Shown here piece after piece: positions 4,288 through 54,768 of a stretch of 64,000 bases of DNA. The position numbers were made by a program, and so were the translations under genes. Where the stretch lies: positions 3,257,002 through 3,321,001 of the forward strand of contig NZ_CP014619.1 of NCBI RefSeq assembly GCF_002074055.1, given 5' to 3'. Below the pieces are notes generated by a model that was given only the letters and a program-made list of their open reading frames with translations, was not told where the DNA came from and ran no database searches. Numbering within the stretch: position 1 is the stretch's first letter; the number at the start of each line of letters is the position of its first letter. This stretch comes from Frondihabitans sp. 762G35 (GTDB lineage: Bacteria > Actinomycetota > Actinomycetes > Actinomycetales > Microbacteriaceae).

Positions 4288-4291
4288 GGTC

Positions 4292-5284
4292 CTAGCCGGC
4301 GGTCTGCACGTAGGTGTACTTGGTGAGGTCGGCGGCCGAGGTCGACGAGTCCAGGACGATGTTCGGCAGGGTGACGGCCTTGTCGATGCCGGTCGTTCCG
4401 CTCTTGACCGCCTTGATCAGGGTCTGCACGGCGAGCTTGCCCTCCTGGGCGGGGTCCTGGGCGATGAGCGCCGTGAAGACGCCCTTCTTGATCAGGTCGA
4501 CGTTCGTCTTGTAGGCGTCGTAGCCGATGAGGGCGACCTTGCCGTCGAGGCCCTTGGCCTGGAGAGCCGAGGAGGCGCCCTGGGCGTTGGTGCCGTCGAT
4601 GGCGAAGATGCCGTTGAGCTTCGGGTACGCCGTCAGCCAGTTGGAGATGTTCGTGTTGGCCGTGGTCGGGTTCGACTGCGAGTAGCCGGTCGCGACGATC
4701 TTGATGCCGGGGTACTTGGCCGCGATCTGGTCCTGGAAGCCCTTCAGGCGGGCGACGTTGGTGCTCGCCGTGGCCGAGGTGAGCCCGACGACGACCTGGT
4801 AGCTGCCTCCGGCCTTGTAGCCGATGGCCTTGGCCATGGTGTCGGCCGCGACGGATCCGCCCTGGCTGTTGTCGCCCGTGATGAAGGAGACGGCGCCGCC
4901 GAGGTCGGAGACGCTGCTGTCGACGTTGAGGATGGGGACGTTGGCGGACTTGGCCTGGGTCATGGCGTTCTGCAGCGCCGTCGGGTCGGTCGGGGCGAGC
5001 GCGATGCCGGAGGGCTTCTGCGCGAGCACCTGGTTGAAGATGGGGATCTGGGTGGCCGGGGAGTACGTCGTCGCGTCGCCCTGGAAGATGAGCTTCGCGC
5101 CCTCGGCCGTGGCCTCGGCCTGCGCGCCGACCTTCATCGCCTGGAAGAACGGGTCGGACGAGGCGCCGACCACGAAGGCGATCGTGATCGTCTTGCTCGA
5201 ACCGCCGGCGGACGACCCACCTGCCGCGGGGGTCGAGGACGAGCTGCAACCGGTGAGGGCGAGACCGGCGACGGCGACCAGGCC
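4292..5284 (-). pseudogene. Sugar-binding lipoprotein of the CUT2 importer, 5' end missing
   Basis: Periplasmic-binding protein type 1 (RbsB-like) with 330 readable codons. The first readable residues are GLVAVAGLALTGC, the hydrophobic core and lipobox of a lipoprotein signal; the basic N-terminal residues and the start codon are gone. In this frame a TGA directly precedes the GGC codon (5282-5284), so no upstream start exists; the only later ATG (5173) lies past the signal. The mature part looks intact, with paired domain motifs such as ALAPTDPTAL, FAIDGTNAQGAS and ALIGYDAY. The break coincides exactly with the broken 5' end of the divergent lacI gene. The sugar is not predictable. Confidence 0.85.
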
Positions 5285-6249
5285 TCAAGTCGGTCTCCCG
5301 GGTCATCAACGACGAGCCCAACGTCTCCGACGCCCTCCGCGCCAAGGTCGAGGCCGCCATCGCGAGCCTCGATTACCAGCCCAACCTCCAGGCGGGCAGC
5401 CTGCGCCGCTCGGGCGGCGGATCCAAGTCGATCGGCCTCGTCGTCTCCAGCGTCGCCAACCCCTTCGCCAGCACCCTGCACCGCGGGGTCGAGGACGCCG
5501 CGGCTCTCAACGGCGTCGCCGTCTTCAGCGCGAGCGGCGACGACGACCCGGCCCGCGAGCAGGCCATCGTCTCGGCCCTCGTGCGCCGCCGCGTCGACGG
5601 GCTCGTCATCACGAGCACCGCCGCCGACCACGGCTACCTCGTCAAGGAGCAGGAGCGGGGTACACCGATCGTCTTCGTCGACCGCCGGCCGACCGGCCTC
5701 GACGTCGACGCCGTCGTCTGCGACAACGCGGAGGGGGCCGCGGCCGCCGTGCGCCACCTCTTCGAAGCCGGCCACCGCCGCATCGCCTACCTCGGCGACC
5801 GCAACGACATCCGCACCGCCCTGGAGCGGCGCGACGGCTTCCTCGAGGCGATGGGCCAGGGCGGTGTCCCCCTGAACGAGATCGTCGTCGTCGAGGACCT
5901 CCACGACGAGGAGGTCGCGCAGGCCGCGGTGGAGGCCGTCCTCCGGCTCCCCGAGCCGCCGACGGCGCTGTTCACGAGCCAGAACCTCGTCACCGTGGGG
6001 GCCATCCGGGCCCTCCGCCGCCTGGGGCTCCAGCACGAGATCGCCCTCGTCGGCTTCGACGACGTGCTCATGGCCGACCTCCTCGAACCGGCCGTCACGG
6101 TCATCTCGCAGGATCCCCACCGCATCGGCGAACTCGCCACCGAACGGCTGTTCGCGCGGCTCGCCGGCGACCGATCGGCGCCCCAGACGCTCGTCGTCCC
6201 GACACGCCTGATCGCGCGCGGATCCGGGGAGATCCCGCCCCGGGGGTGA
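5281..6249 (+). pseudogene. LacI-family regulator, 5' end missing
   Basis: LacI/GalR regulator of 322 readable codons that opens in the middle of the helix-turn-helix: GLKSVSRVINDEPNVS corresponds to the recognition-helix region, so roughly the first dozen residues (helix 1) and the start codon are missing. The hinge (PNLQAGSLRR) and the sugar-sensing core are complete up to the stop at 6249. The first in-frame GTG is at 5581, inside the core domain. In an intact locus this protein would repress the divergent sugar ABC operon on the minus strand. The DNA-binding domain cannot be made as sequenced. The deletion endpoint shares the bases GGCC with the truncated binding-protein gene. Confidence 0.85.
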
Positions 6250-6371
6250 CGCGGATCCTGCGAGCCGCCGGGGTACAAAGCCACGAGCCTCCGAGTCTCC
6301 TGCCCCTTTCGACCGCTCGGGTCGCCGCGGCCCTACCGTTCAGGCTCCAGCACCCATCGAAGGAGCACCCC

Positions 6372-6827
6372 ATGGCACAGGCCATCGAAACGATCGACGT
6401 CGACGTCCCCGTCTCCGTCGCGTACAACCAGTGGACCCAGTTCGAGGAGTTCCCGAAGTTCCTCGACGAGGTCGAATCCATCACGCAGACCACCCCCACC
6501 CTGACGGTGTGGAAGGTGAAGGTCGGCCCGGTCGAGAAGACGTTCGAGGCGGAGATCACCGAGCAGCACCCCGACGAGCGCGTCGCCTGGAACAGCACCG
6601 GCGGCGAGGTCGACCACGCCGGCGTCATCACGTTCCACAAGCTGAGCGACACCACGACGCGCCTCACGGTGCAGATCGACTGGGAGCCCACGGGCTTCCT
6701 GGAGAAGGTCGGCCAGACCCTCGGCGCCGACAACCACGCCATCAAGAAGGACCTCAAGAACTTCAAGGGGTACATCGAGAAGCAGGGCACGGCCGACGGC
6801 GCCTGGCGCGGCGACGTCGACGCCTGA
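6372..6827 (+). CDS. SRPBCC-family protein (polyketide cyclase/coenzyme Q-binding fold)
   Basis: Cytoplasmic protein of 151 residues with a START/Bet v1-like fold. The pattern is typical: an N-terminal strand with IDVDVPVSVAYNQWTQFEEFPKFL, then WNSTGGEVDHAGVITFHKL and a long C-terminal helix (residues 115-140). Members bind hydrophobic ligands in a central cavity; no ligand can be named here. The ATG at 6372 follows AAGGAG (6360-6365). The next gene begins three bases after the stop and a glycosyltransferase follows with an overlap, so the three form one operon. SRPBCC proteins of this type are common stress-associated proteins in Actinobacteria. Confidence 0.88.
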   Translation: MAQAIETIDVDVPVSVAYNQWTQFEEFPKFLDEVESITQTTPTLTVWKVKVGPVEKTFEAEITEQHPDERVAWNSTGGEVDHAGVITFHKLSDTTTRLTVQIDWEPTGFLEKVGQTLGADNHAIKKDLKNFKGYIEKQGTADGAWRGDVDA

Positions 6828-6830
6828 CCC

Positions 6831-7202
6831 ATGGAACTCATCCACTACGCCGACGGCTCGATCATGACCGGGTCGGCAATCGCGCAGGCGCTGCTCGACT
6901 ACGCCCAGGTGCTCGCGTCACGGGGCAGCGCCGCGACGGTTCAGGTGCCCACTCGGATGGATGACGGCACCCTCGGGTCGGCCACCTTCCTCCTCGGGCC
7001 CGCCAGCCAGATCGTGGCGGTCACGACGACCTCCCCGTTCGACGAGGTGGAGGACGCCGCACTCGTCGAGCGCCTCGAGACCGAGACGGCCCGCCAGCGG
7101 GGCGCCGCCGTGCGACCCGAGGAGCAGCAGGAGTTCGACGTGCAGGAGGGCGACCTGGAGACGGGCGACTTCGTGCCGACCGATCCGCCGCGGACCACGT
7201 GA
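6831..7202 (+). CDS. Unknown small acidic protein
   Basis: Protein of 123 residues with no signal peptide and no membrane segment. The first 75 residues look like a small alpha/beta domain that includes the segment TFLLGPASQIVAVTTTSP; the C-terminus is acidic and Glu/Asp-rich. I do not recognise the family. It starts three bases after the SRPBCC stop and its own stop overlaps the GTG of the glycosyltransferase gene as GTGA (7199-7202), so it is surely part of the same transcript. Coding bias is like that of its neighbours. Nothing beyond a cytoplasmic location can be inferred. Confidence 0.75.
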   Translation: MELIHYADGSIMTGSAIAQALLDYAQVLASRGSAATVQVPTRMDDGTLGSATFLLGPASQIVAVTTTSPFDEVEDAALVERLETETARQRGAAVRPEEQQEFDVQEGDLETGDFVPTDPPRTT

Positions 7203-8449
7203 GGCCGAGCCGGCGAGAGCGGGCCGCGGGTGCGCGTCCCCGCTGGCTCGTCGGCGTGACCGAGTACGCCGGAGTCACGGGCTACACCGGGGGGATCGGG
7301 CGTCACTACGCGTCCCTCCTCCCGGCACTGGTGCGGGCCGGCGTCGACGTCGATCTCGCGCTGTTCGACGGCGGCCGTCTGATCCGTCCGGATGCGCCGG
7401 GCGGCGTCACGCTGGTCGCTCACCGCCGCTTCGCGCGGGTACCGGCGGTGTTCCTGCCCGTCGTCCGCGCCGCGGCCTTCCGTCGCCTGGCCTCGAGAGG
7501 CCGCTACGACCGGATCCTGCTGCCGGAGTGGGGTGGTATCGGGGCGCTCCTGGCCTCCCGGGAGAACCTCGTGACGAACCTGGCGACGAGCATGCGGCTC
7601 TCCAACGACGTCTCGGGGGTCCGCGTCGCCGACCTCCCCCTCTCCCGTCGCGCGCTCGTGGCCGTGCAGAACACCTGCGAGGACCGCCAGATCCGGCGTT
7701 CGCGCGGCGTCATGCCCATCTCGCGGGCGATGGAGGCGCGCAACCGCGACCTCCTCGGACGACTCCCCACCGCCACGGTGGTGCGCAACTGCATCGACGT
7801 GGCCGAGGTCCAGGCCCGTGCGGCCGGGAGCGCGCCGCCCCGCGACTGGCCCGTCGGCCCGGGCCCGATCGTCCTCTTCCTCGGCCGTCTGGAGCGCCGG
7901 AAGGGCGTCGTCGACGCCGCGGACGCCTTCGCGACCGTGGCCGCGCGTCACCCCGACGCCCGGTTCGTCTTCGCCGGCTCGCCCGGCGACAGCCGCTTCG
8001 AACCGACTCGGCAGGAGCTGCTGCGCCGCACGGGATCTCTGCCCGAGGGCCGCGTGACGCTCCTCGGCCACGTCCCCGGCGACGAGCTCTACGCCGGGAT
8101 CGCCCGCGCGAGCGTCGTCGTCTGCCCGTCCCGGTGGGAGGGGTTTGGGCAGGTGGCGCTGGAGGTCAAGGCCATCGGCCGGCCGCTCGTGGTGACGTCG
8201 GGCAGCGGATACGACGACTTCTGTCGGGACGGCGTCGACGCGCGGATCGTCCGCCCCGGGGCTCCTGCGGAGCTGGCGGAGGCCGTCGCGAACCTGCTCG
8301 ACGATCGGGGCACCGCCGAGCACCTGGGCGAGACCGCCCGGCGCGGGATCGACCGCTTCACCGCCAACGCCGTGGCACCGGACGTCGTCGCCGCCGTCAC
8401 CGCCCTCGGGGAGCCGCCGCGCGGGTCCACGAGTCGCCGTCGCGCCTGA
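7199..8449 (+). CDS. Glycosyltransferase family 4
   Basis: GT-B retaining glycosyltransferase of 416 residues. The N-terminal acceptor domain contains a Gly-rich loop (GYTGGIGRHY). The C-terminal nucleotide-sugar domain begins with IVLFLGRLERRKG (about residues 223-235) and ends with the GT4 signature CPSRWEGFGQVALEVKAIGRP, which carries the E-x7-E-like motif that contacts the donor. There is no signal peptide, so it acts at the cytoplasmic membrane face. The GTG at 7199 overlaps the previous stop by four bases. Its last 53 bases overlap the 3' end of the convergent GT2 gene. It is the first of seven clustered glycosyltransferases. Confidence 0.88.
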   Translation: MRPSRRERAAGARPRWLVGVTEYAGVTGYTGGIGRHYASLLPALVRAGVDVDLALFDGGRLIRPDAPGGVTLVAHRRFARVPAVFLPVVRAAAFRRLASRGRYDRILLPEWGGIGALLASRENLVTNLATSMRLSNDVSGVRVADLPLSRRALVAVQNTCEDRQIRRSRGVMPISRAMEARNRDLLGRLPTATVVRNCIDVAEVQARAAGSAPPRDWPVGPGPIVLFLGRLERRKGVVDAADAFATVAARHPDARFVFAGSPGDSRFEPTRQELLRRTGSLPEGRVTLLGHVPGDELYAGIARASVVVCPSRWEGFGQVALEVKAIGRPLVVTSGSGYDDFCRDGVDARIVRPGAPAELAEAVANLLDDRGTAEHLGETARRGIDRFTANAVAPDVVAAVTALGEPPRGSTSRRRA

Positions 8450-9257
8450 CCAGACCCTCGCGCTCGAACGCCTCCAGCCAGCCGAGCATCGGCCACTCGT
8501 GCCAGCGCTCGGCGAAGAGCGCCCCGTTCCGCAGAATGTCGTCGAGGTGGGCGCGGGGCGGCGAGGACGTGGGGTGGTACTGGTGGTAGGCGTCCGCGCC
8601 GCCGACCCAGACCAGCGGCACTCCTCCCTCGCGGAGTCGGAACGCGTAGTCGGTGTCCTCTCCGCCGTAGCCCTCGTAGGCCTCGTCGAAGCGCGGGCCC
8701 TGCCGCCACCGGGTCGCCGTCACGGCGAACGAGAGCGACCAGAACAGCGGGTACTCGTCGGGAGAGGCGACGCGCAGGATGCCCGGGGCCGGGTCCGGCC
8801 GCGCCGCGTGCGGTGCCCGGTGCCTCCGCATCACCCCCGCGTCTCCCGCCTCGACGCCCTCGGGGAGGTACGTGACCGGGCCGCACAGCACGGCGTCGGG
8901 CCGCTCCCGGGCGGCGTCCGCGTACCGCGTCACGAGCTCCGTGTCCGGGACGCAGTCCGCGTCGAGGAAGACGACGAGGTCGGCACCGTCGGCGACGGCG
9001 CGGTCGGCTCCGGCGTTCCGAGCGGCGGCGAGGCGGAGCCCGCGGGGCCCCGGCGGCACGGCCAGGACGACGTCGGCGGGGAGGTCGGGCGCCGCCCCCT
9101 CGTCGAGCCACACGACGACGCGCCGGTGACCGAGGGCCGCGACCGCCGCGAGCTGCACGTCGAGGTGCGCGCGACGGGCGGCGGAGGCGGTGGTCACGAC
9201 CGTCGTCCCGACGACCGGTGCGCCGGAGGTCACGGTGGTGGACATCGCCGCGGTCAC
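8397..9257 (-). CDS. Glycosyltransferase family 2
   Basis: GT-A inverting glycosyltransferase of 286 residues. It shows the RLAAARNAGAD motif and the metal-binding DXD variant FLDADCVPD, followed by a YEGYGGEDTDYAFRLRE segment, the usual ED-type catalytic region of family 2. The GTG at 9257 is preferred because it overlaps the preceding gene's stop as GTGA, the pattern used throughout this cluster; ATG 9245 is the alternative. It is the last gene of a four-gene minus-strand operon and overlaps the end of the convergent GT4 gene. Donor and acceptor are unknown. Confidence 0.88.
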   Translation of the reverse strand: MTAAMSTTVTSGAPVVGTTVVTTASAARRAHLDVQLAAVAALGHRRVVVWLDEGAAPDLPADVVLAVPPGPRGLRLAAARNAGADRAVADGADLVVFLDADCVPDTELVTRYADAARERPDAVLCGPVTYLPEGVEAGDAGVMRRHRAPHAARPDPAPGILRVASPDEYPLFWSLSFAVTATRWRQGPRFDEAYEGYGGEDTDYAFRLREGGVPLVWVGGADAYHQYHPTSSPPRAHLDDILRNGALFAERWHEWPMLGWLEAFEREGLVRRDGDSWTRAAAPRGR

Positions 9258-10279
9258 CGAGCCCACCGCGCCGCCGTGTCGAGGATCGCGTCGGCCGCGC
9301 GCCGGGCCGCACCCTGCGTCTGCCAGGCCGACCAGTCCGGCTCCTGCCGCCGAGCGATCTCGACGAGGTCGGCCCAGCGCGACGCGGTCGGCCAGGTCGG
9401 CTGCACGACGGCGAGCCCGAGGCGCTCCAGCGCCTGACCCGTCTCGACCTGCTCGTCGAAGGGGCGCGGCTGCGGGATCACGACCGCGCGCGCGTCGGCC
9501 GCGGCGAGGTCGGCGACGGAGTTCTGCCCGGCCCAGGCGATCACGACGGCGGCGGCGGTCAGGTCGGGCCAGGGGTCGTCGCGCCAGGTGCCGCCGGGTT
9601 CCAGCACGGTCACGGTCTCGCCGGTCAGAGCCGTCCGGAGTCCGTCGACGTCGCCGGCGGTGACGCCGCCGCCGCCCGAGCCCAGGAGCACGAGGACACC
9701 GGAACGCTCCACCCGGGGAGCGACCGCCCGCCCGTCGAATCGGCTGATGCCGCCGGTGTGGACGACGTCCGCGCCGTCGAAGCGTGGTCGGTCGACCGCG
9801 CCCTCGGGATAGGGGGCCAGGATGCGGGTCGCCGCACGGTACGCGGTCAGGTGCGGCGTGTCCGAGCGGTCCCCCGGCTGAGCCATGACCACGACGGGCA
9901 CGCCGAGGAGCCGCACGAAGAGGGTCACCTCGACCGAGACGTCCACGACGAAGGCGTCCACCCCGTGCCGCTCGATCCCGTCCGCGATGCGGGCGAGTCG
10001 GGACCGGTGCCCGCGGTGACCGAGGGGCGCCCAGTGCAGGAGCCCCGCGGCGCTCGGGGACGCCTCCGCCGGCGCGTGCTCGACGCCGTGGGCGTCGACC
10101 TCCACCCCGTCGTCGGTCGCGAGACGCACCCACGTCGTCCCGGCGGGGAGCCCGCTCGGCTCGGGGAGCGAGCTGAAGCAGACCACGTCGGCGTCGAGGT
10201 GCGGTCGGATCGCGAGGAATCGCGTGACGTGGCCGTGGCCGTGGTGGTGGACGTACCAGCCGACCGTGGGCCGGGTCAC
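9254..10279 (-). CDS. GT-B glycosyltransferase, MurG/GT1-like
   Basis: Protein of 341 residues with the fold of MurG and related GT1/GT28 enzymes. The N-terminus reads WYVHHHGHGHVTRFLAI, the histidine/glycine-rich acceptor loop of that group. The C-terminal donor domain holds GSGGGG and IAWAGQNSVADLAAADA, then VVIPQPRPFDEQ, the equivalent of the MurG GGxxTxxE and donor-ribose-binding region. The GTG at 10279 overlaps the upstream stop by four bases, and the downstream GT2 gene overlaps its stop in the same way. It is probably a cytoplasmic, membrane-associated enzyme of a surface-glycan pathway. Confidence 0.85.
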   Translation of the reverse strand: MTRPTVGWYVHHHGHGHVTRFLAIRPHLDADVVCFSSLPEPSGLPAGTTWVRLATDDGVEVDAHGVEHAPAEASPSAAGLLHWAPLGHRGHRSRLARIADGIERHGVDAFVVDVSVEVTLFVRLLGVPVVVMAQPGDRSDTPHLTAYRAATRILAPYPEGAVDRPRFDGADVVHTGGISRFDGRAVAPRVERSGVLVLLGSGGGGVTAGDVDGLRTALTGETVTVLEPGGTWRDDPWPDLTAAAVVIAWAGQNSVADLAAADARAVVIPQPRPFDEQVETGQALERLGLAVVQPTWPTASRWADLVEIARRQEPDWSAWQTQGAARRAADAILDTAARWAR

Positions 10280-11382
10280 GCGGCCGGCTCCGCCTCGGCC
10301 GCGGTGCGCTCCAGGACCCTCTCGAGCTCCCGGATCCTGCCCGTCAGCCCGAAGCGGCCGACGGCAGCGTCGCGGACACCGCGGCGGAACCCGGGATCGG
10401 TGCGGCCGGCCTCGACGAGCGCCGAGACCGCTCCGGCGAGCGCCTCGACGTCACCGACCGGCACCAGGCGGAGACCTCCGGAGTCGTGGTGCAGCTCCGT
10501 CACGCCGCCGACGGCGAACCCGGCCACCGGGGTGCCGCAGAGCAGGGCCTCCGGGGTCACGAGGCCGAAGGGCTCGTCCCAGAGCGGGGTGACGAGGGCG
10601 CAGGAACTGCGGCCGACGAGGTCGACGAGGTCGGCGGTCCCGAGGGGGCCGACGTAGCGCCGGTCGTCGTCGAGGAGGGGCTGGATCTCGGCGTCGAAGT
10701 AGGCGCGGTCGCCGATCCTCCCGGCGATCGTCAGGGGGCGCCCGAGGAGGTGCGCGACGCGGAGGGCGAGGTGCGGGGCCTTCTCGGGGACGATCCGCCC
10801 CGACCAGACCAGCGAGTCGCCGCCCGGCCCCTCGACCCAGGTCTGCTCGTCGACCCCGTTGTGCAGGACGTCGGACGCGATGCCGACGCCCCGCCAGGTG
10901 CGTGCCGTATGCCCGCTGACGGAGAGGAACCTGCTCGATCGGCCGACGGCTCGCCCGTGCGAGGCGACGAGCTCGGGGACCACCGGCGTGTGGAGGGTCG
11001 AGATCATCGGCACGCCGAGGGACCCCGCCCGGGCGAGCGGCAGCCCGTGGAGGCAGTGGTTCACGACGACGTCCAGGGATCCGCTGCGGCGGCGGACCTC
11101 GTCGAGGGCGCGATCGAGCGCGGGGAGCGCTCGGTCGAGGTACCCCGGCGGGTAGGTGTCGTCGGCGGCGCTCGGATCGCCCCGCCAGTCGACGGCGGGC
11201 AGGGTGTACGACGCGGGACCGAGGTCGAGGAAGTCGGAACCCTCCGTCGCGATCAGCTCGACGTGGTGGCCGCGGGCACGGAGGTGCCTCACCTCGTTCC
11301 AGACGGCGGACTCGAGTCCCCCGGCGAACGGCAGCCGGATCGGGAAGCGGAGGGGCGCGATGAGCGCCAGGCGGAGGCTCAC
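10276..11382 (-). CDS. Glycosyltransferase family 4
   Basis: GT-B enzyme of 368 residues. The N-terminal domain opens with LALIAPLRFPIRLPFAGGLE, the Gly-rich loop of GT4 enzymes acting on lipid-linked or trehalose-type acceptors. The C-terminal domain contains LVWSGRIVPEKAPHLALRVA and the donor signature PLWDEPFGLVTPEALLCGTPV, with both glutamates present. The start is GTG 11382, overlapping the upstream gene's stop as GTGA (11379-11382); longer readings upstream run through that gene and are rejected. It is the second gene of the minus-strand glycosyltransferase operon. Confidence 0.88.
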   Translation of the reverse strand: MSLRLALIAPLRFPIRLPFAGGLESAVWNEVRHLRARGHHVELIATEGSDFLDLGPASYTLPAVDWRGDPSAADDTYPPGYLDRALPALDRALDEVRRRSGSLDVVVNHCLHGLPLARAGSLGVPMISTLHTPVVPELVASHGRAVGRSSRFLSVSGHTARTWRGVGIASDVLHNGVDEQTWVEGPGGDSLVWSGRIVPEKAPHLALRVAHLLGRPLTIAGRIGDRAYFDAEIQPLLDDDRRYVGPLGTADLVDLVGRSSCALVTPLWDEPFGLVTPEALLCGTPVAGFAVGGVTELHHDSGGLRLVPVGDVEALAGAVSALVEAGRTDPGFRRGVRDAAVGRFGLTGRIRELERVLERTAAEAEPAA

Positions 11383-12464
11383 GAGGCCTCCCTCCCGGCG
11401 AGGAGCCGGCGGTAGAGGTCGACGTGCGCCTCGACGGTGGCCGCGTCGGTGACCGCGCGGGCCCCCCGGCGATTCGCCACGAGGCGGCGTCGCTCCGGCG
11501 TGCCGGCGGGCGGTGCGGCGGCGAGAACCCGGGCGAGCGCGGCCGCGAGGGCGGACCCGCCGCCCTCCCACGCGAAGGACGCGACGGTCGGATCGTCGTG
11601 CTGCTCCCGGAAGAAGCCGACCTCCGGAGCCGCGACGGCCACGCCGAGGTCCCAGCAGAGCTCAAGCCAGCCGGAGTGCGTCCCCGACCGGTAGGGCAGG
11701 AGGCACGCGTCGAGGTGCGACAGGCTGTTGGCGAGGCTCGCGTCGTCGAAGCGCTCGTGCTCGAGGAGCACGACGTCCGCCCGGGCGGCGCAGAGCGCGC
11801 GGACGACGGCCCGCTGCTCCTCGTCGCGCACGTGCCGGTGGAGGTGCACCTCGCCCGTGGCGGCGAGTCCCCGGTCGCGGAGCCCGTCGAGGGCGCCGAG
11901 GAGCGTCGCCACGGCGAGGGGTCCGTCGACGTTCGGCCGGAGGTCCTTCAGGTGGACGCCCACGACGCGGTCCGGCCGGGGGAAACCGACCGCGGGAGGG
12001 GCGTCGTCGGCGAGGAGCCGGGGGTGCGGCAGGACGAGCGGGCGGCGGCCCCAGCGCGCTTCGACGGCGGCCGCGGCTCCTGCGGTCAGGGTGATGAGGG
12101 CGTCGACGACCGGCACGAGGGCGTCGAGGCGCTCGAGGTGCGGGGCCTGATCGGCGAGCTGCGGGTTGACGAGGTCGTGGACGGTCAGCACGACCGGCCA
12201 GCCGACCCGGTGCGCCGCGTCGACGACCTCCACGAGGTCGGCCGATGCGAACGACTCGAAGCCGAAGTGGAGGTGCAGGAGCCGGGCCTCGTCGGGGTGC
12301 TCCTCGATCCACCCCGGCGAGAGGACGACCGGCGGCCACCACTGGCCCTCGGGCGCCCCGTCGGGTCGCGGGTCGGGCAGGAGCCGGAGCTCGCCCGAAT
12401 CGAGGATCCGTTCGACGTAGGGGTGGCCCGCGGGAACGGAGCAGACGGTGACGGACTGCGCCAA
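11379..12464 (-). CDS. GT-B glycosyltransferase, first gene of minus-strand GT operon
   Basis: Protein of 361 residues with a GT4-like layout: VLTVHDLVNPQ in the N-terminal domain, VGVHLKDLRPN at the domain junction, and LLPYRSGTHSGWLELCWDLG in the donor-binding position, which is more divergent than in its neighbours. The start is taken as TTG 12464, because AGGAGG (12469-12474) precedes it by four bases; GTG 12485 is the alternative. The gene is divergent from the next glycosyltransferase, with about 128 bases between starts. It heads a four-gene operon whose members overlap by four bases each. Confidence 0.82.
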   Translation of the reverse strand: MAQSVTVCSVPAGHPYVERILDSGELRLLPDPRPDGAPEGQWWPPVVLSPGWIEEHPDEARLLHLHFGFESFASADLVEVVDAAHRVGWPVVLTVHDLVNPQLADQAPHLERLDALVPVVDALITLTAGAAAAVEARWGRRPLVLPHPRLLADDAPPAVGFPRPDRVVGVHLKDLRPNVDGPLAVATLLGALDGLRDRGLAATGEVHLHRHVRDEEQRAVVRALCAARADVVLLEHERFDDASLANSLSHLDACLLPYRSGTHSGWLELCWDLGVAVAAPEVGFFREQHDDPTVASFAWEGGGSALAAALARVLAAAPPAGTPERRRLVANRRGARAVTDAATVEAHVDLYRRLLAGREAS

Positions 12465-47619: not shown

Positions 47620-48348
47620 TCACTCCGGGCTGGCGAGCGCGAACGCCCTCCACATCTGGTCGGGTCGTGAGATCAGGCACTGCATGCCCAGAGCAGCACC
47701 GCCGACGTCGTCGTGTGCCGAGTCGCCGATCATCAGACACTCGCTCGGGTCCGTGCCGAGCAGATCTGCTGCACGTTGGAAGATGCGCGGGTCGGGTTTC
47801 ACATACCCGACCTCATAGGAGAGGACCACCGCGTCCAGTGCGGAGGCGATGCCCCAGCCCGAAAGTGCGGGGCGTATGTCCAGAGCGATGTTCGAAACGA
47901 TGGCCAAGCGGATCCCCGCCTCAGACGCTCGGCGAACGAAGTCCGCCGCGCCGTCGTTCAGCACCCACTGGTTCGGCATCGTCTCGTAGAGAGCGCGGGC
48001 CAGGTCGACGGGGACCGCTCCGTCGTGGCTCAGCGTCGACACGAAAGCCTGCCGGTGCACTTCGGGGTCGAGATCCCAGTCCGCGGCGGGGAACGACTTC
48101 TTCGCATCGCTCCAGACGTTGCGCAGTCGTTCGACGAGCACCGGCCGTGAGGAAGGACGGCTCGACGTCAGCGATCCTGCATCGTCGACCCATGTCTCGA
48201 ACGATCGCACGACCGCCGTCGTGTTGTGGAAGTCGAGGAGGACGGCGCGAGGCCGAGCTCTCGCTGACGCGGACGGTCGCGCTTCGCTGGACGACGTCCC
48301 GCGTCGTGATCGATCGACGTGCGCGTGGTTGTCTCCGGTTCCACCCAT
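47620..48348 (-). CDS. HAD-superfamily hydrolase
   Basis: Cytoplasmic phosphatase-like enzyme of 242 residues. Motif I is LLDFHNTTA (nucleophile Asp), in which the usual second Asp of DxD is replaced by His; motif II is IVSN, motif III K in VKPDPRIF, and motif IV GDSAHDD. The His at motif I means the leaving group may be protonated differently, or activity is altered. The N-terminal 30 residues are Ser/Arg-rich and may not be translated; a later start would give about 210 residues. Substrate unknown. Confidence 0.85.
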   Translation of the reverse strand: MGGTGDNHAHVDRSRRGTSSSEARPSASARARPRAVLLDFHNTTAVVRSFETWVDDAGSLTSSRPSSRPVLVERLRNVWSDAKKSFPAADWDLDPEVHRQAFVSTLSHDGAVPVDLARALYETMPNQWVLNDGAADFVRRASEAGIRLAIVSNIALDIRPALSGWGIASALDAVVLSYEVGYVKPDPRIFQRAADLLGTDPSECLMIGDSAHDDVGGAALGMQCLISRPDQMWRAFALASPE

Positions 48349-48438
48349 CCGGTCACACTAGGCCAGCCGCGGTGGATGTCCCGCGCGCCATCGACGAGAA
48401 TGAGCCACACCCCATCCACGCCGCCGCCCGAGGGAGAT

Positions 48439-49020
48439 GCCATGGCCGGATTCACCGGTTTCGCGAGCCGCCGCAACGCCGATCCCGCGCTGCCGCCGGG
48501 TCAGTACCTCGAGAAGGGGTTCCCGGTGCTCTCGACCGGCCCCGACCCCACCATCACGGTGTGGGAACTCCAGCTCGCCACCGACGTGGGCAGCCGCTCC
48601 TGGTCGTGGGAGGAGTTCCTCGCCCTCCCGCAGGAGGACGTCGCCACCGACATCCACTGCGTCACGAGCTGGTCGAAGCTCGGCACGCACTGGCGCGGCG
48701 TCTCCGTCGACACGCTCTTCGAGGGCCTCGCCACCGAGCACCGGTTCGCGATGGCCCACTGCTACGGCGGCTACACGACGAACCTGCCGCTCGCCGACCT
48801 GCTCGGCGGCAAAGCGTGGGTCGTTCACGAGTTCGAAGGCGCACCCCTCCGGTCCGAGCACGGCGGGCCGGCGAGGCTCTTCGTGCCGCACCTGTACTTC
48901 TGGAAGAGCGCCAAGTGGCTCCAGGGTCTCCAGACCATGGCGACCGACCGGCCCGGGTTCTGGGAGAACTACGGCTACCACAACCACGGCGACCCGTGGA
49001 AGGAAGAGCGCTACGCGTGA
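48439..49020 (+). CDS. Molybdopterin-dependent oxidoreductase (sulfite oxidase-like)
   Basis: Protein of 193 residues with the sulfite-oxidase/YedY molybdopterin domain. The Cys that ligates molybdenum is in DIHCVTSWSKLG; RGVSVDTLFEG, HCYGGYTTNLPL and PARLFVPHLYFWKSAKWL follow as in this family. There is no twin-arginine signal, so unlike MsrP it stays in the cytoplasm. ATG 48439 is in the right frame; it lies eight bases after GAGGGAG (48427-48433). The flavin reductase gene overlaps its stop as GTGA, so the two very likely form one electron-transfer pair. Confidence 0.88.
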   Translation, partial: AMAGFTGFASRRNADPALPPGQYLEKGFPVLSTGPDPTITVWELQLATDVGSRSWSWEEFLALPQEDVATDIHCVTSWSKLGTHWRGVSVDTLFEGLATEHRFAMAHCYGGYTTNLPLADLLGGKAWVVHEFEGAPLRSEHGGPARLFVPHLYFWKSAKWLQGLQTMATDRPGFWENYGYHNHGDPWKEERYA

Positions 49021-49763
49021 CCGGCTCCTGGCGCCCCGCCGTCTGCGTCGCCGCCCGCACGGAGACTCCGACGGCGCGCAGCATCCGGCTCCGGGTCGAC
49101 GGCCTCGGCCCCGTCGTCGCCGGACAGCACATCGACATCCGGCTCACGGCCGACGACGGCTACCAGGCGGTCCGGTCGTACTCCCTTTCGGCGACTCCCG
49201 TCGGGGGCCCCCTCGGCGTCCCGCTGGCCGACGACGAGGTCGAGATCACGGTCGAGGAACTCCCCGAGGGCGAGGTGTCGCCCTACCTCGTCCAGGGTCT
49301 GGAACCGCAGGATGCGCTCGAGGTCCGCGGCCCCATCGGCGGCTGGTTCGTGTGGCGTGACACCGACCCCGACCCGGTGCAGCTCATCGGCGGCGGGTCC
49401 GGCGTCGCTCCCCTGGTCGCGATGCTCCGCGCGCGGGTGGCCGGCAGGAGCCCCGTGCCGATGCGCCTCCTCACCTCCGTCCGCACCCCCGAATCCCTCT
49501 ACTTCGGCGACGAGTTGCGCCGCCTCGCCGAAGTCCCGGGCATCGGGGTCGACGTCGCCTACTCGCGCGAGGCGCCCGCCGGGGAGGTTCGACCGGCGGG
49601 GCGCCTCACGGCCGGCGACATCGCGGCCTTCGTCCAGGAGCCCGGCGCCGGGACGGTCTTCGTCTGCGGCCGCACCTCGTTCGTGGCCGCGGTCACCGAC
49701 CTGCTGATCGCGCGCGGTCACGACCCGGCGAGCATCCGGACGGAACGGTTCGGCGGAGCCTGA
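49017..49763 (+). CDS. FAD-binding oxidoreductase (ferredoxin-reductase type)
   Basis: Flavoprotein reductase of 248 residues. The FAD-binding motif RSYSL (residues 58-62), the NAD(P)-binding GGGSGVAPL and the final CGRTSFV (CGxxxF variant) are present in order. No [2Fe-2S] domain is attached at the C-terminus. GTG 49017 overlaps the molybdoenzyme stop (GTGA, 49017-49020). It likely passes electrons between NAD(P)H and the molybdopterin enzyme, a combination known in bacterial genomes but with no established substrate. Confidence 0.88.
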   Translation: MTGSWRPAVCVAARTETPTARSIRLRVDGLGPVVAGQHIDIRLTADDGYQAVRSYSLSATPVGGPLGVPLADDEVEITVEELPEGEVSPYLVQGLEPQDALEVRGPIGGWFVWRDTDPDPVQLIGGGSGVAPLVAMLRARVAGRSPVPMRLLTSVRTPESLYFGDELRRLAEVPGIGVDVAYSREAPAGEVRPAGRLTAGDIAAFVQEPGAGTVFVCGRTSFVAAVTDLLIARGHDPASIRTERFGGA

Positions 49764-49804: not shown

Positions 49805-50518
49805 TCAGGCGCTCCAGCTGCGGCGCTTCGTCAACGGCGTGGCGAACGAGTCGATCTTGCTCGTGGAGAGCCCCTGGCGGATCAGGGTCTCGACGAGGGC
49901 GGCAGCGGCCGCGACGCCGTCGACGACCGGTACGGGGAGGCGTCCGCGCACGTGCTTTTCCAGCCCGGCCATACCGGCACAGCCCAGGCAGATTACCTCG
50001 GCGCCCTTCGTGATTGCTCGCCGTCCGGCCTCGACGAACGCTTCCGCCGTCGCGAACGGGTCTTCGTCGAGTTCCAGGACGCCGAGCCCGGTGTCCTCGA
50101 TCGCGGCACAGCGGTCGATGAGACCTGCCGTCGTCAGGCTGTCCTCGATCTGTCCGACAGCGCGCCTCACGGTGGTGACCACCCCGTAGCGGCGTCCGAG
50201 GGTCATGGCGAGGTGCGCGGCGGCCTCGGTGATGTCGACCACCGGGATGGAGAGGAGTTCGCGAGCACCCTCTCGTCCGTGCTCTCCAAAGCCCGCCAGG
50301 ACGACACCGTCGATGTCGTCGGACAGACGCTCGAGCGTCTGGAGGACGGCGGCGGCGCTGATGAAACTGTCGTACCACCCTTCGGCGGAGGCCACTCCCC
50401 AGGCGGGCGTGATGCCGACGACCTCCACGTCCGGTCCGACGGCGAGCCGAGCGCGTGATGCGGCGGTCTCCGTCATCGACACGGTCGTGTTGCAGTTGAC
50501 GACGGCGATGCGGATCAC
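49805..50518 (-). CDS. Asp/Glu racemase-superfamily protein, AMDase-like active site
   Basis: Cytoplasmic protein of 237 residues with the Asp/Glu/hydantoin racemase fold. In racemases two Cys flank the substrate; here the first position is Gly (G76 in VVLAGFGEHG) and only the second is Cys (C180 in CLGCAGM). That is the pattern of arylmalonate decarboxylase, which has Gly and Cys at these places. NCNTT (residues 8-12) and TTAGL match the anion-holding loops. GTG 50518 overlaps the upstream stop as GTGA. Last gene of the catabolic-looking operon. It may decarboxylate or isomerise rather than racemise; activity is not proved by sequence. Confidence 0.8.
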   Translation of the reverse strand: MIRIAVVNCNTTVSMTETAASRARLAVGPDVEVVGITPAWGVASAEGWYDSFISAAAVLQTLERLSDDIDGVVLAGFGEHGREGARELLSIPVVDITEAAAHLAMTLGRRYGVVTTVRRAVGQIEDSLTTAGLIDRCAAIEDTGLGVLELDEDPFATAEAFVEAGRRAITKGAEVICLGCAGMAGLEKHVRGRLPVPVVDGVAAAAALVETLIRQGLSTSKIDSFATPLTKRRSWSA

Positions 50519-51543
50519 GACGCGGCTCCGGCGAACCGGGTGAGCGGGGCCGAGGATCCGGGCGCGACGGCGACAGGGGTTCCGATTCCGCGTTCCCGGG
50601 CCAGGTCGATGACGCGTGCGGCGACGGCCAGATCCTGCGCTCCGACACCGACGGAGTCGAACACGGTGATCTCGTCGGCGCTGGTCCTGCCGACGGCCGC
50701 GCCCGCGATGACTTCGCCCAGTTCGGCGTAGTGCCCTCCGACCGGCAGGAGCCCCTCGGCCACGGCCACGAGGAGGTCCCCCGACTTGGCCATCGCGGTC
50801 GCGCGACTGTCGACGAACACGGTCGCCCGCGCCATAGCCTCCCCGTCGAGCTCTCGGTGGGTCGGCCGCGGCCGAGCACCGACGGCATTGACGTGCTGCC
50901 CGGAGTGCAGCCAGGCCCCGAGGACCACCGGTTCGACGGACGGCGTCAGGGTGCAGACCACGTCGGATCGCTCCACGACGTCCTGCGGTCCCGAGGCGAC
51001 GGAACAGCGCCCCGCGAGGTCGGCGTCGAGCTCGCCGAGGAAGCGCTCGACCGTGGTGGGTGACCGCGACCAGACGACGATGCGTTCGAAGGGTCGCGCG
51101 GCGGCGAAGGCCCGTGCGTGCTCGGTCGCGAGATTGCCCGCCCCGACGAGCCCGAGGATCCTGCTGTCCGAGCGAGCCAACCGCCGAGTGGCCACGACCG
51201 AGGCGGCCGCCGTCCGTCGGCGCGTGATGGCCATGCCGTCCAGGATGGCGACGCACTCGCCCGTGACCGTCGAGGAGACGAGGATCGTGGACCGCTGCGT
51301 GGGCAGACCCCTCGCGACGTTCTCCGGGATGTCGGCCATGAGCTTGACTGCGACGAGGCCGAGGCGGTCGGATCGGACGGCCATGGGCAGGAAGACGGCG
51401 TCGTCCGAGCCGGTCAGAGCCACCGGCGCCGGCTGCGTCATGGCGCCGGAACCCAGATCGGCGTGGATGGCCTCGACAGCCCCGACGACGTCGACATCGC
51501 CGATGACGGTTCCGATCTCCGCGGCGCCGAGGACGAACGTCAT
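50515..51543 (-). CDS. Ornithine cyclodeaminase/mu-crystallin family protein
   Basis: Cytoplasmic enzyme of 342 residues. The family lysine is K67 (VAVKLMAD); the Rossmann motif is GLVGAGNLATEHARAF near residues 131-146; later motifs include VNAVGARPRPTHREL and VFVDSRATA. Members include ornithine cyclodeaminase, alanine dehydrogenase and ketimine reductases, so the reaction is open: reduction of a C=N bond or deamination with NAD(P). ATG 51543 overlaps the upstream stop as ATGA; its own stop overlaps the racemase-fold gene. Coupling of three genes suggests one pathway. Confidence 0.88.
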   Translation of the reverse strand: MTFVLGAAEIGTVIGDVDVVGAVEAIHADLGSGAMTQPAPVALTGSDDAVFLPMAVRSDRLGLVAVKLMADIPENVARGLPTQRSTILVSSTVTGECVAILDGMAITRRRTAAASVVATRRLARSDSRILGLVGAGNLATEHARAFAAARPFERIVVWSRSPTTVERFLGELDADLAGRCSVASGPQDVVERSDVVCTLTPSVEPVVLGAWLHSGQHVNAVGARPRPTHRELDGEAMARATVFVDSRATAMAKSGDLLVAVAEGLLPVGGHYAELGEVIAGAAVGRTSADEITVFDSVGVGAQDLAVAARVIDLARERGIGTPVAVAPGSSAPLTRFAGAAS

Positions 51544-52442
51544 CGGGCGTTCACGGCGGCGGGCGCACCGAGAAGCTCCTCGAGCGAAGGCCTGTGCGTG
51601 GTGAGGCCGCCGTCGAAGAGGATGCTCATCCAGCGGTCGGAGGCGTCGCGGTCCACCACGGCGGAGTCCCAGACACCGCCCGCCGCCATGTCGTCGGCTG
51701 CGCGGCGCAGGAGCGTGGAGTCCTTGTCCGGCCAGCGAGCAGCCAGAACGGCCTCGATCTCGCTGTCGGCGGCGTGCAGGTTGATCCGGGTCATGGCCGC
51801 GGCGATACCGTCCATGAAGCGGTCGATGCGGTCCGTCAGCTCCTCGACTCGCTCGGTGAGGCAGTAGTAGACGCTGTTCGGCATCACTCCGCCCGACTGG
51901 AGATGACGGAAGACGATGGTGCCACCGCCCGCTGCCACGAGTTCCTCGGCGGAGACGAGATCGAGGATGATGGCGTCGCCGAGGCCGCCTCGGTAGAGCT
52001 CGATCAGCATCGACGTCGAGAGATCGCGGACGAACCTGGTCTTCGAGACGTCGAGACCCGCTTCGCGGATCAGGCCGGCAGTGAACTCGTAGGGGGCGCT
52101 ACCGCCGGCTCCCGGGGCGAGGACGACCTTCCCCGCGAGCTGATCGAGCGTGATGGGCTCGGTCTCGGTTCGCGACACGATCGTCATGGGGAACCTGTGG
52201 TTGAGCTGCCCCACGACACTGAGTCGGCGAGTCGTCCCGGCGTACATCGCGGGGACCCAGAGTCCACCGAGAGCAAGATCGGCGGCACCCGACTCGATGT
52301 CGTCGAGCACGCCCGTCCACGGGTCGCGCGCTGTGGCGGCGACCCGGAGGCCGCGCTCGGCGAAGAGGCCGCCCTGGACGGCGACGTACTCCGGCAGGTA
52401 GTTGAGGCCGTTGGCGGTGGCGGAGATTTTCAGGGTGTCCAT
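51540..52442 (-). CDS. NMT1/SsuA-like binding-protein fold without signal peptide
   Basis: Protein of 300 residues with the type 2 periplasmic-binding fold (THI5/NMT1/SsuA group): LKISATANGLNYLPEYVAVQGGLFAERGL at the start, then DLALGGLWVPAMYAG. No signal peptide or lipobox: the protein starts directly at the first strand (ATG 52442 with GGAGG five bases before). No permease or ATPase gene is linked. So it is probably cytoplasmic and may be an enzyme, like MqnA/MqnD or THI5 that use this fold; the CCCFC iron motif of THI5 is absent. Its stop overlaps the cyclodeaminase-like gene (ATGA). Confidence 0.78.
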   Translation of the reverse strand: MDTLKISATANGLNYLPEYVAVQGGLFAERGLRVAATARDPWTGVLDDIESGAADLALGGLWVPAMYAGTTRRLSVVGQLNHRFPMTIVSRTETEPITLDQLAGKVVLAPGAGGSAPYEFTAGLIREAGLDVSKTRFVRDLSTSMLIELYRGGLGDAIILDLVSAEELVAAGGGTIVFRHLQSGGVMPNSVYYCLTERVEELTDRIDRFMDGIAAAMTRINLHAADSEIEAVLAARWPDKDSTLLRRAADDMAAGGVWDSAVVDRDASDRWMSILFDGGLTTHRPSLEELLGAPAAVNAR

Positions 52443-52506
52443 TGTTCCTCCAGGGGAATCGTGGGGTGGGAGGGTGGGCCGGAGGCTCCGGCCCACCCGT
52501 TCGGTG

Positions 52507-53964
52507 TCAGGTCCGGTCGGTCGCCAGGGCGTTCTCGTTGACGTCTTCGAGGGAGATGCCGCGGGCTTCGGGGGCGAAGCGCGAGGCGACGACGAGGATG
52601 GCGTACATCACGGCCGCGAGTCCGAAGACGCCGACGAACGCGAAGGAACCGTAGAGGGCGATCGCCAGAAACGGCATGACGGCTCCTGCGATGTTGCCGA
52701 TGCCGTTCACGATCGAGGCACCGGATGCGCGGATAGCGGTTGGGTAGACCTCGGCCGTCCAGGCCGCGAGGGTCGTGTTTGTCAGCATCGTGAAGAACTG
52801 GAACAGCGCGCCGAGCACCAGGATCGCGGCCGTGTCGTTCCCGAAGGCGGCGAAGGCCAGGGCCGTGAGGCAGCCCAGGATCCCGGCCGTCGTGACCATG
52901 GCGCGGCGTCCCACCCGGTTCGCGAGCAACGCCGCCGCCGTGCAGCCGAGGAGCGAACCGATGTTCATGATCATCGTGTAGAGCAGGCTCTGCGAGACGG
53001 TGTATCCGCGCTCGACCAGCAGGGTCGGCATCAGGAAGTTGAGGGTGACCTGCGATCCGAAGGCCATCCACGAGGCGACCCCGATGGCGATGGTGCGCTT
53101 GAGGACGAGACGGTGGAACACGGCAGCGGGCGACGAGTGGAAAGCGACAGGCGGCAGATCGGCGGGCGTCAGAGTCACCGGCGACTTCGCGTCGGCCGCG
53201 GGCCGGAGGCTGTTCGACGCGAGGATCGCCAGCGAGCGATTCGCCTCGTCGATGCGTCCCTTCGAGAGCAGCCACCGGGGCGTCTCGGGGAGCCGACGCC
53301 GGTAGAGCACGACGAGCAGGGCCGGAAGAGCGAGGATCACGAAGGTCCAGCGCCAGACCTGGCCGTCACCGCCCAGAGGCACGGCGAGCGGTCCGAGCAG
53401 GAGCAGGAACAGGCCGTAGGAGATGAAGTTGCCGATTCCGCCCGCCCCGACGTTGATCGTCGCGATGAGACCGCCGCGGTACCGGGTGGCGACCATCTCG
53501 GACAGCATCGCGATACCGATCATGAACTCGCCGCCGACGCCGATCCCGACGATGAACCGGCTGACGAGCAGCATGTCGTAGTTGAACGACAGGGCACTGA
53601 GGAGGCCACCGAGCGTGTAGATCAGGAGATTCAGCCCGAGCGAGAAGCGACGACCGTACTTGTCGGCGAGCCAGCCGGCCAGGAAGCGTCCGACGAGGCC
53701 GCCGAGGACGGTGGCGGTGTTGATCGTCGTGAGCTGGATATCGCCGATCTGGAGCGACGCCTTGATGTTGGTGGCCATCGCACCGACGGAGTTCTGCTCG
53801 AGGGTGTCGAAGAACTCCCCCGCCAGGATCAGCATCAGCACCGCGAACTGAGCGCGGGTGAATCCGATCGAGTCGAGGGCGGAGGCGACGCCCCGGGAGG
53901 CGTCGGGGGTGGTGACGGGCGGTGTGGTGCCGGTGGGAGCTGTGGTGCGCGTTACAGCAGTCAT
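52507..53964 (-). CDS. MFS transporter, metabolite:proton symporter/sugar-porter type
   Basis: Inner-membrane importer of 485 residues with 12 predicted segments. GRFLAGWLADKYGRRF (motif A), VGIGVGGEFMIG, LPETPRWLL and AAWTAEVYPTAIRASG are signatures of the MHS/sugar-porter group that takes up aromatic acids or other metabolites. ATG 53964 has GGAG six bases before it. The gene is first in the operon with the binding-protein-fold, cyclodeaminase and racemase-fold genes, and lies behind a GntR-type operator, so it probably imports the pathway substrate. Confidence 0.9.
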   Translation of the reverse strand: MTAVTRTTAPTGTTPPVTTPDASRGVASALDSIGFTRAQFAVLMLILAGEFFDTLEQNSVGAMATNIKASLQIGDIQLTTINTATVLGGLVGRFLAGWLADKYGRRFSLGLNLLIYTLGGLLSALSFNYDMLLVSRFIVGIGVGGEFMIGIAMLSEMVATRYRGGLIATINVGAGGIGNFISYGLFLLLLGPLAVPLGGDGQVWRWTFVILALPALLVVLYRRRLPETPRWLLSKGRIDEANRSLAILASNSLRPAADAKSPVTLTPADLPPVAFHSSPAAVFHRLVLKRTIAIGVASWMAFGSQVTLNFLMPTLLVERGYTVSQSLLYTMIMNIGSLLGCTAAALLANRVGRRAMVTTAGILGCLTALAFAAFGNDTAAILVLGALFQFFTMLTNTTLAAWTAEVYPTAIRASGASIVNGIGNIAGAVMPFLAIALYGSFAFVGVFGLAAVMYAILVVASRFAPEARGISLEDVNENALATDRT

Positions 53965-54025: not shown

Positions 54026-54040
54026 TTTTGTATACGAAAA
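54026..54040. promoter_or_regulatory. GntR (FadR-type) operator upstream of the MFS gene
   Basis: TTTTGTATACGAAAA, a near-palindrome around GTATAC, matching the FadR-subfamily half-site form TNGT-ACNA. It lies 62 bases before ATG 53964 and contains TATACA on the minus strand, a possible -10, which suits repression. Confidence 0.65.
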
Positions 54041-54138: not shown

Positions 54139-54768
54139 CTATTTCGTATACGTTCTGTGGCCGAGGGTGTCGAGGATCGCTTCATCTCTTCCGAGGTGCT
54201 CGTCCATGAGGAGGCCCGCCTGGACGGGGGATCCGCGCAGGATCGCCTGGGCGACAGCCGCGTGGTCACCCCCGCTTTCGGCCACCTCCTCGCGGGTGAC
54301 GCGCTCGAAGGCCCAGGCCGTCTGGTGCAGGAGACGCTCGATCATCGTCTCCAGGTGTGCGTTGCCCGAGGCGTGGGCGACGAGCCGGTGAAAGGCGAAG
54401 CGGGGCGACTGGGCCTCCACCTCCTGGTCCGAGCGCTGCTCGTCGATGACCGCGCGCAGGAGCTCGGCACTGTCCCCTCCCCGACGTCCCGCGGCCAGCT
54501 CCGCCGCCAGGACCTCGAGGCCCCGACGGATCTGCATCAGCTCGATGACCGCCTCAGCCGACGAGTCGGCGACGCTGACACCCTTGAACTTCTCGGCGAC
54601 GACGAATCCCTCGGTCTCGAGCTGTCGCAGCGCCTCTCGGACCGGCACGCGGGAGACCCCGAAGCGGTCCGCGAGGGCGTCCTCTTTGAGGCGCGTGCCT
54701 CGGGCGAGGCTGCCGGCGATGATCTCGGCGCGAAGAGCCTTGAGGACGGATGCGGGTTTGGACTCCAC
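54139..54768 (-). CDS. GntR-family regulator, FadR subfamily
   Basis: Regulator of 209 residues. The winged helix occupies residues 1-70 (LARGTRLKEDALADRFGVSRVPVREALRQLETEGFV) and an all-helical FCD ligand domain follows (residues 80-205), with AFHRLVAHASGN and metal-type His positions. Start: GTG 54768, six bases after TAGGAT on the minus strand, a leaderless form. It sits upstream of the MFS operon in the same direction. The last codons (RTYTK) contain a copy of the regulator's own likely binding site. Confidence 0.9.
   Translation of the reverse strand: MESKPASVLKALRAEIIAGSLARGTRLKEDALADRFGVSRVPVREALRQLETEGFVVAEKFKGVSVADSSAEAVIELMQIRRGLEVLAAELAAGRRGGDSAELLRAVIDEQRSDQEVEAQSPRFAFHRLVAHASGNAHLETMIERLLHQTAWAFERVTREEVAESGGDHAAVAQAILRGSPVQAGLLMDEHLGRDEAILDTLGHRTYTK
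54142..54154. promoter_or_regulatory. Second GTATAC operator, inside the end of gntR
   Basis: TTTCGTATACGTT, near-palindromic, sharing CGTATAC with the first operator read on the opposite strand. It lies within the final codons of gntR, so the coding sequence and operator overlap. Confidence 0.55.

Follow-up and report, generated by a model that had tools for sequence, protein, structure and literature searches.

The 64,000-nucleotide stretch of Frondihabitans sp. 762G35 analysed here (contig NZ_CP014619.1, hereafter the window) carries a conserved minus-strand operon. It encodes a major facilitator superfamily (MFS) transporter, a protein with the fold of an ATP-binding cassette (ABC) substrate-binding protein (SBP), a member of the ornithine cyclodeaminase (OCD)/mu-crystallin family and an allantoin-racemase-type protein, and a gene for a GntR-family regulator lies upstream. 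Our tentative reading, which we hold to be quite possible, is that this GntR-controlled operon serves to take up and process a chiral cyclic ureide, the likeliest substrate being a 5-substituted hydantoin that is related to allantoin but is not allantoin itself. In keeping with the first-pass annotation, which had called the pathway undescribed, a literature search found no publication describing this combination of genes.

Gene order, conservation and operator

The features of the locus, in order from the promoter side, are:

54139..54768, minus strand: GntR/FCD-family regulator (Pfam GntR and FCD), in the same orientation as the operon
54142..54154: operator-like palindrome, AACGTATACGAAA, the second of two, within the 3′ end of the GntR gene
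54026..54039: operator-like palindrome, TTTCGTATACAAAA (minus-strand sequence), about 70 base pairs (bp) before the MFS start
52507..53964, minus strand: MFS transporter, sugar/aromatic-acid/SLC22-like (Pfam Sugar_tr and MFS_1)
51540..52442, minus strand: SBP-fold (NMT1/THI5-like) protein, taken as cytoplasmic (Pfam NMT1)
50515..51543, minus strand: OCD/mu-crystallin-family NAD(P)-dependent protein (Pfam OCD_Mu_crystall)
49805..50518, minus strand: allantoin-racemase-type protein of the Asp/Glu/hydantoin racemase superfamily (Pfam Asp_Glu_race)

The Pfam assignments of all four operon proteins score above the gathering score, and the GntR/FCD gene lies 174 bp upstream of the MFS gene. The four genes form one operon, as first described; of the three start-stop overlaps claimed for it, the ATGA between the SBP-fold and OCD-family genes (4 bp) and the GTGA between the OCD-family and racemase genes stand, whereas the MFS and SBP-fold genes are separated by 64 bp. 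The MFS protein matches TIGR00895 and TIGR00898 below their cut-offs, and its nearest solved structures are the SLC22 transporter OCT1, SV2A and URAT1. Reading frames for molybdopterin sulfite-oxidase-like and ferredoxin-reductase-like genes (48319-49763) converge on the operon from the opposite strand.

When GTDB contigs were scanned for the SBP-fold protein, 27 loci were found; tblastn with the other operon proteins revealed the order MFS-SBP-OCD in about 25 of these. The genera concerned are Frondihabitans, Curtobacterium, Agreia, Frigoribacterium, Arthrobacter, Streptomyces, Pseudonocardia, Amycolatopsis, Saccharopolyspora, Mycolicibacterium and Gordonia. The recurrence of the same order in some 25 actinobacterial loci, which answers the first-pass proposal to look for the gene set in other genomes, means that the arrangement is not due to chance. 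The racemase gene follows the OCD-family gene directly in 10 of these loci and is found nearby in 3 more, and the operon is preceded by a GntR orthologue in Frondihabitans, Curtobacterium, Amycolatopsis, Saccharopolyspora and Mycolicibacterium. The module is rare and patchily distributed: the SBP-fold gene is present in 13 of 300 Microbacteriaceae genomes and, among 395 genomes sampled from the class, in only two others.

Several relatives show variations of the locus. In four Curtobacterium loci (L025-L027 and L040) there is no racemase and a gene for an amine-oxidase-like flavin adenine dinucleotide (FAD) protein follows the operon; three of the four also have a glycerate kinase gene there, and L026 a class A beta-lactamase gene. 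At L032, L036, L040 and L042, OCD, racemase or SBP genes are cut short or split, reflecting either operon decay or assembly errors. At L039 (789-7739) and L050 (638-6168), the main SBP-fold gene has a paralogous unit beside it, made up of genes for an MFS protein, an M24 hydrolase and an SBP-fold protein (~42%). In rhizobia, distant SBP-fold relatives (36-39%) are encoded in one operon with an M24 hydrolase, a two-Cys hydantoin-type racemase and a sugar-type ABC importer that comes with an exported binding protein of its own. The Shinella relatives carry ProC together with an M24 hydrolase.

A GntR-type palindrome, TTCGTATACAAAA, is present upstream of the MFS gene. GTATAC occurs only twice in the window (54030 and 54146), both times upstream of the operon, as an operator-like pair. 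Among the upstream regions of the relatives, 20 of 24 have a GTATAC palindrome before the MFS gene, mostly as TTTCGTATACAAAA and in Streptomyces as the variant TTGGTATACCAA, where about 0.04 GTATAC would be expected per region. The exact sequence TTYGTATACRAAA is confined to one locus per genome in six of six whole genomes, always at the operon, and a search for a wider regulon with the operator pattern in these six genomes found the operon locus only. Allowing two mismatches gave three sites elsewhere in the Frondihabitans genome compared with seven for the control, i.e., chance level. Given this single-locus distribution, the regulon seems to consist of this one locus; the palindrome most likely serves as operator for the adjacent GntR protein, which would bind it (putative target sequence TTTTCGTATACAAAA) and have the operon as its only strong target.

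The racemase and the OCD-family protein

The closest solved structure to the racemase-fold protein is that of Pseudomonas fluorescens allantoin racemase AllR (PDB 5lfd; E 3e-73, residues 3-232), with 55% identity over the whole length. Gly and Cys are indeed found where racemases have two Cys (G76 and C180 in the window protein), a feature that had led the first-pass annotation to liken the protein to arylmalonate decarboxylase (AMDase). The same Gly, however, occupies the first-Cys position in allantoin racemases, where it is accompanied by a conserved Glu three residues on (E79 here), and the Gly/Glu/Cys pattern is common to all operon racemases. In the 2016 work of Cendron et al., this Glu is said to stand in for the missing Cys of allantoin racemase. 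Moreover, no AMDase structure was retrieved at an E value of 0.001, and in Pfam only PF01177, and no Amdase model, was matched. Judged by these matches and residues, the protein is an allantoin-racemase-type enzyme and not AMDase-like, and it is very hard to believe that it would act as an AMDase-like enzyme in a malonate-type acid pathway. The malonate-like half of the substrate class first suggested is accordingly dropped, while a nitrogen-containing acid or ureide, handled together with the MFS transporter, remains probable.

The residues that bind the substrate ring in KpAllR (Asn12, Met17, Thr118 and Thr119; PMC12661438) are kept in the window protein as N10, M15, T115 and T116. In the trees, the operon racemases group together (0.93) as a separate clade next to, and outside, the AllR clade (0.97), which holds the allantoinase-, allantoicase- and NCS1-linked allantoin racemases, their closest non-operon relatives. 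The window enzyme shares with P. fluorescens AllR (5lfd, 5lg5) the Gly in place of the first Cys, the downstream Glu, the second Cys and the ring-binding residues, but C9 and W48 are fixed in the operon clade, while V9 and N48 are found in 10 of 10 allantoin racemases of the AllR clade. It also differs in genomic setting, being encoded beside MFS, SBP-fold and OCD genes rather than beside allantoinase or an NCS1 permease. The replacements are consistent with an altered side-chain pocket. Since the operon clade adjoins the allantoin racemases yet differs from them at Cys9 and Trp48, its substrate is probably a 5-substituted hydantoin related to allantoin rather than identical with it.

Arrangements in relatives point in the same direction. 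Racemases of the same wider clade in one genus (g17) form a third tree group, with C9 and Y48. Their genes adjoin an Opp-type ABC importer and an amidohydrolase resembling cytosine deaminase/N-isopropylammelide hydrolase, with an OCD protein and a GntR regulator nearby; this set ends in the racemase and lies beside an allantoin cluster. Directly upstream of the MFS-SBP-OCD-racemase operon of L103 (at 3448-11991) lie genes for an Opp-type ABC importer, an OCD protein, a GntR regulator and a PRK05985 amidohydrolase, and the same set is present at L095 and L096. The set has the appearance of an alternative form of the pathway. Racemases of the wider clade and OCD proteins are thus tied to N-heterocycle metabolism twice, with different transporters. 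The pairing of the rhizobial SBP-fold relatives with a hydantoin-type racemase likewise speaks for a hydantoin.

Turning to the OCD-family protein, the best NCBIfam model is PRK06141, pyrroline/piperideine-2-carboxylate reductase, reached with 222.7 bits against an equivalog cut-off of 322, and the best solved relatives are the archaeal-type Delta1-pyrroline-2-carboxylate reductase (PDB 6t3e) and mu-crystallin (CRYM, 4bv8). The catalytic Asp of ornithine cyclodeaminase, which we take to be Asp228 of the Pseudomonas enzyme in the motif VG-x-D-x-PGK-x-EL, is replaced by Arg or Pro in the operon set (the motif reads NAVGARPRPTHREL in the window protein). Ornithine cyclodeaminase was rejected on this ground and on the OCD equivalog cut-offs, which are not reached. 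The first-pass label of an NAD(P)-dependent cyclodeaminase fold therefore holds as the name of the superfamily and fails as a function. As the reductase models score best and the OCD catalytic Asp is replaced, the protein is probably an imine or ketimine reductase. It shares family, best-scoring model, Lys67, the RTAA motif (both conserved) and the lack of the OCD Asp with the ketimine/Delta1-pyrroline-2-carboxylate reductases, and differs from them in scoring below every equivalog cut-off.

The combination of a racemase-superfamily and an OCD-family protein, with an M24 hydrolase in related loci, resembles the ectoine/hydroxyectoine utilisation genes (EutABC, EutD/DoeA), from which the operon differs in having neither ectoine hydrolase nor deacetylase. 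Ectoine degradation was rejected: the EutC model TIGR02992 gives 155 bits against a cut-off of 472, the EutA model TIGR02990 has no match and DoeA scores far below its cut-off.

The SBP-fold protein

The SBP-fold protein begins with MDTLKISATANGLNYLPEY, so that its first residues already belong to the first strand of the fold. The 32 relatives in the alignment (33 sequences in all) start at this strand too, apart from a few extra residues in those with upstream start calls. None of the 33 has a signal peptide, and on the position of the N terminus the protein is taken as cytoplasmic. No ABC permease is encoded in the window operon or in its actinobacterial counterparts. The protein lacks the marks of an ABC substrate-binding protein (signal peptide or lipobox, linked permease), and the first-pass view of a protein with neither signal nor transporter partners is borne out. 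As for homologues with a signal peptide and a linked permease, which that view had named as its refutation, the signal is missing throughout the alignment, although the rhizobial relatives do follow an ABC operon.

The AlphaFold2 model (mean predicted local distance difference test score 91.6) has a type II SBP fold. It matches transport proteins (SsuA, CmpA, ThiY and PqqT), the cytosolic regulatory domain of NrtC/CmpC, which is among the best matches (Z 23.6-24.1), and the enzymes Thi5 (Z 23.5), MqnD (20.5), DszB (16.7) and dihydroxyphthalate decarboxylase (16.0); MqnA entries stand only low in the list. Like Thi5, MqnA/MqnD, DszB and 4,5-dihydroxyphthalate decarboxylase, the protein combines the type II SBP fold with the lack of an export signal, at 11-17% identity to these enzymes. 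Invariant residues in the alignment include N14, Y15, W42, W62, R91, D140, S142, D161, N189, S190, Y192 and Y193. THI5-type pyrimidine synthesis was rejected because the catalytic residues are missing: Gly59 and Val63 occupy the positions of the pyridoxal phosphate Lys62 and the catalytic His66 of THI5, and there is no CCCFC motif of the hydroxymethylpyrimidine-phosphate synthase. A common fold is no proof of function; by analogy, the protein may be either an enzyme, as are Thi5, MqnD and DszB, or a cytosolic substrate sensor, as is the NrtC/CmpC domain; that it is an enzyme is possible.

A candidate ureide pathway and its alternatives

In the model that we favor, the MFS protein would import the cyclic ureide, and the racemase would racemise it at C5 by the one-Cys/one-Glu mechanism of allantoin racemase, which is proposed to make both enantiomers usable. 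The cytoplasmic SBP-fold protein would bind the substrate in its cleft and, as its likeliest single role, convert it chemically in the manner of Thi5, MqnD or DszB. The OCD-family protein might then reduce, with NAD(P)H, an imine or ketimine that arises in the process, and GntR, once ligand-bound, would release the operator ahead of the MFS gene. A bolder version of the ureide pathway seems to us distinctly unlikely: the SBP-fold protein would be a novel cytoplasmic enzyme acting on a 5-substituted hydantoin, which it would either strip of its side chain or open, leaving a cyclic ketimine for the OCD-family protein to reduce. Such a reductive ureide route, previously undescribed, could for example involve elimination of urea from an allantoin-like compound, and the racemase would allow both enantiomers to be used.

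Several observations weigh against the ureide model. The transporter may import or export. The MFS-SBP-OCD core often comes without the racemase, as in Curtobacterium, Gordonia and Mycolicibacterium among others, which means that racemisation is dispensable; the operon also lacks hydantoinase and carbamoylase genes. The known enzymes of the SBP fold use Cys, His or Lys residues, none of which is invariant in the SBP-fold alignment, which leaves room for a pure binding or sensing role. Finally, C9 and an aromatic side chain at position 48 are not peculiar to the operon clade: the g17 racemases, whose genes lie near an allantoinase cluster, have them as well, making allantoin itself a possible substrate.

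These points bear on the alternatives. The missing Cys, His and Lys fit a cytosolic sensor or trap that would bind the substrate of the neighbouring transporter, like the C-terminal SBP-like domain of NrtC/CmpC, and in nearly all loci the SBP-fold gene directly follows a transporter gene (MFS or ABC). But the NrtC/CmpC domains, for all the likeness in fold (Z ~24), location and tie to a transporter, are fused to an ABC ATPase, whereas a free protein is encoded here beside an MFS gene, and we know of no MFS transporter with such a partner. As the SBP-fold gene is, moreover, translationally coupled through its overlap to the reductase and not to the transporter, and the enzyme matches are nearly as good, we regard a sensor as somewhat unlikely. 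The racemase might instead be a plain allantoin racemase in an allantoin uptake unit: the MFS protein would import racemic allantoin, the racemase would convert the R form, and a separate allantoinase cluster would degrade the S form. The genome does have a xanthine-to-allantoin cluster about 90 kilobases (kb) from the operon, with xdh, allantoinase, an M20-type amidohydrolase, a PucG-type aminotransferase, an AtzH-amidase and a formamidase-like gene (xdh, M20 and PucG being names read from the sequences). This cluster has no racemase, and the genome holds no allantoin-racemase-like gene besides that of the operon; its other PF01177 matches are a glutamate racemase and a distant protein. Allantoinase is also found in 13 of 13 carriers of the SBP-fold gene and in 83 of 287 non-carriers among the 300 Microbacteriaceae, weak evidence in that the carriers come from five genera and the association is confounded by clade. 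Such a unit would, however, leave unexplained the SBP-fold and OCD proteins, which make up the conserved core and are also found where the racemase is missing; the fixed C9 and W48 are unlike every N48-type allantoin racemase, and some relatives (G004, G087) hold the operon racemase plus a second hydantoin-type racemase. On balance we consider plain allantoin uptake unlikely. When the surroundings of the operon in relatives were searched out to 8 kb for allantoin and NCS1 genes, the queries used returned nothing but an amidase piece, in L041.

It is also conceivable, though quite improbable, that the operon belongs to a pathway for a cyclic imino acid or other amine-derived acid, with the OCD-family protein as the main enzyme, the racemase as an accessory acting on a D/L mixture, and no hydantoin. 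The closeness of the OCD-family protein to pyrroline/piperideine-2-carboxylate reductases, the racemase-free Curtobacterium loci with their amine-oxidase-like and glycerate kinase genes, and ProC and M24 hydrolase in Shinella would fit, but the racemase belongs to the allantoin/hydantoin branch, not to the proline/amino-acid racemases, and keeps the ring-binding residues.

Few binding-protein folds have turned into enzymes, and each of them defined an unexpected reaction. In operons of the kind described here, the annotations "ABC transporter substrate-binding protein," "ornithine cyclodeaminase" and "aspartate/glutamate racemase" mislead. By joining an SBP-fold protein, an allantoin-racemase-type enzyme and a ketimine-type reductase in one conserved, single-regulon operon, the locus offers a small, testable set of proteins for what may be a new branch of ureide metabolism.

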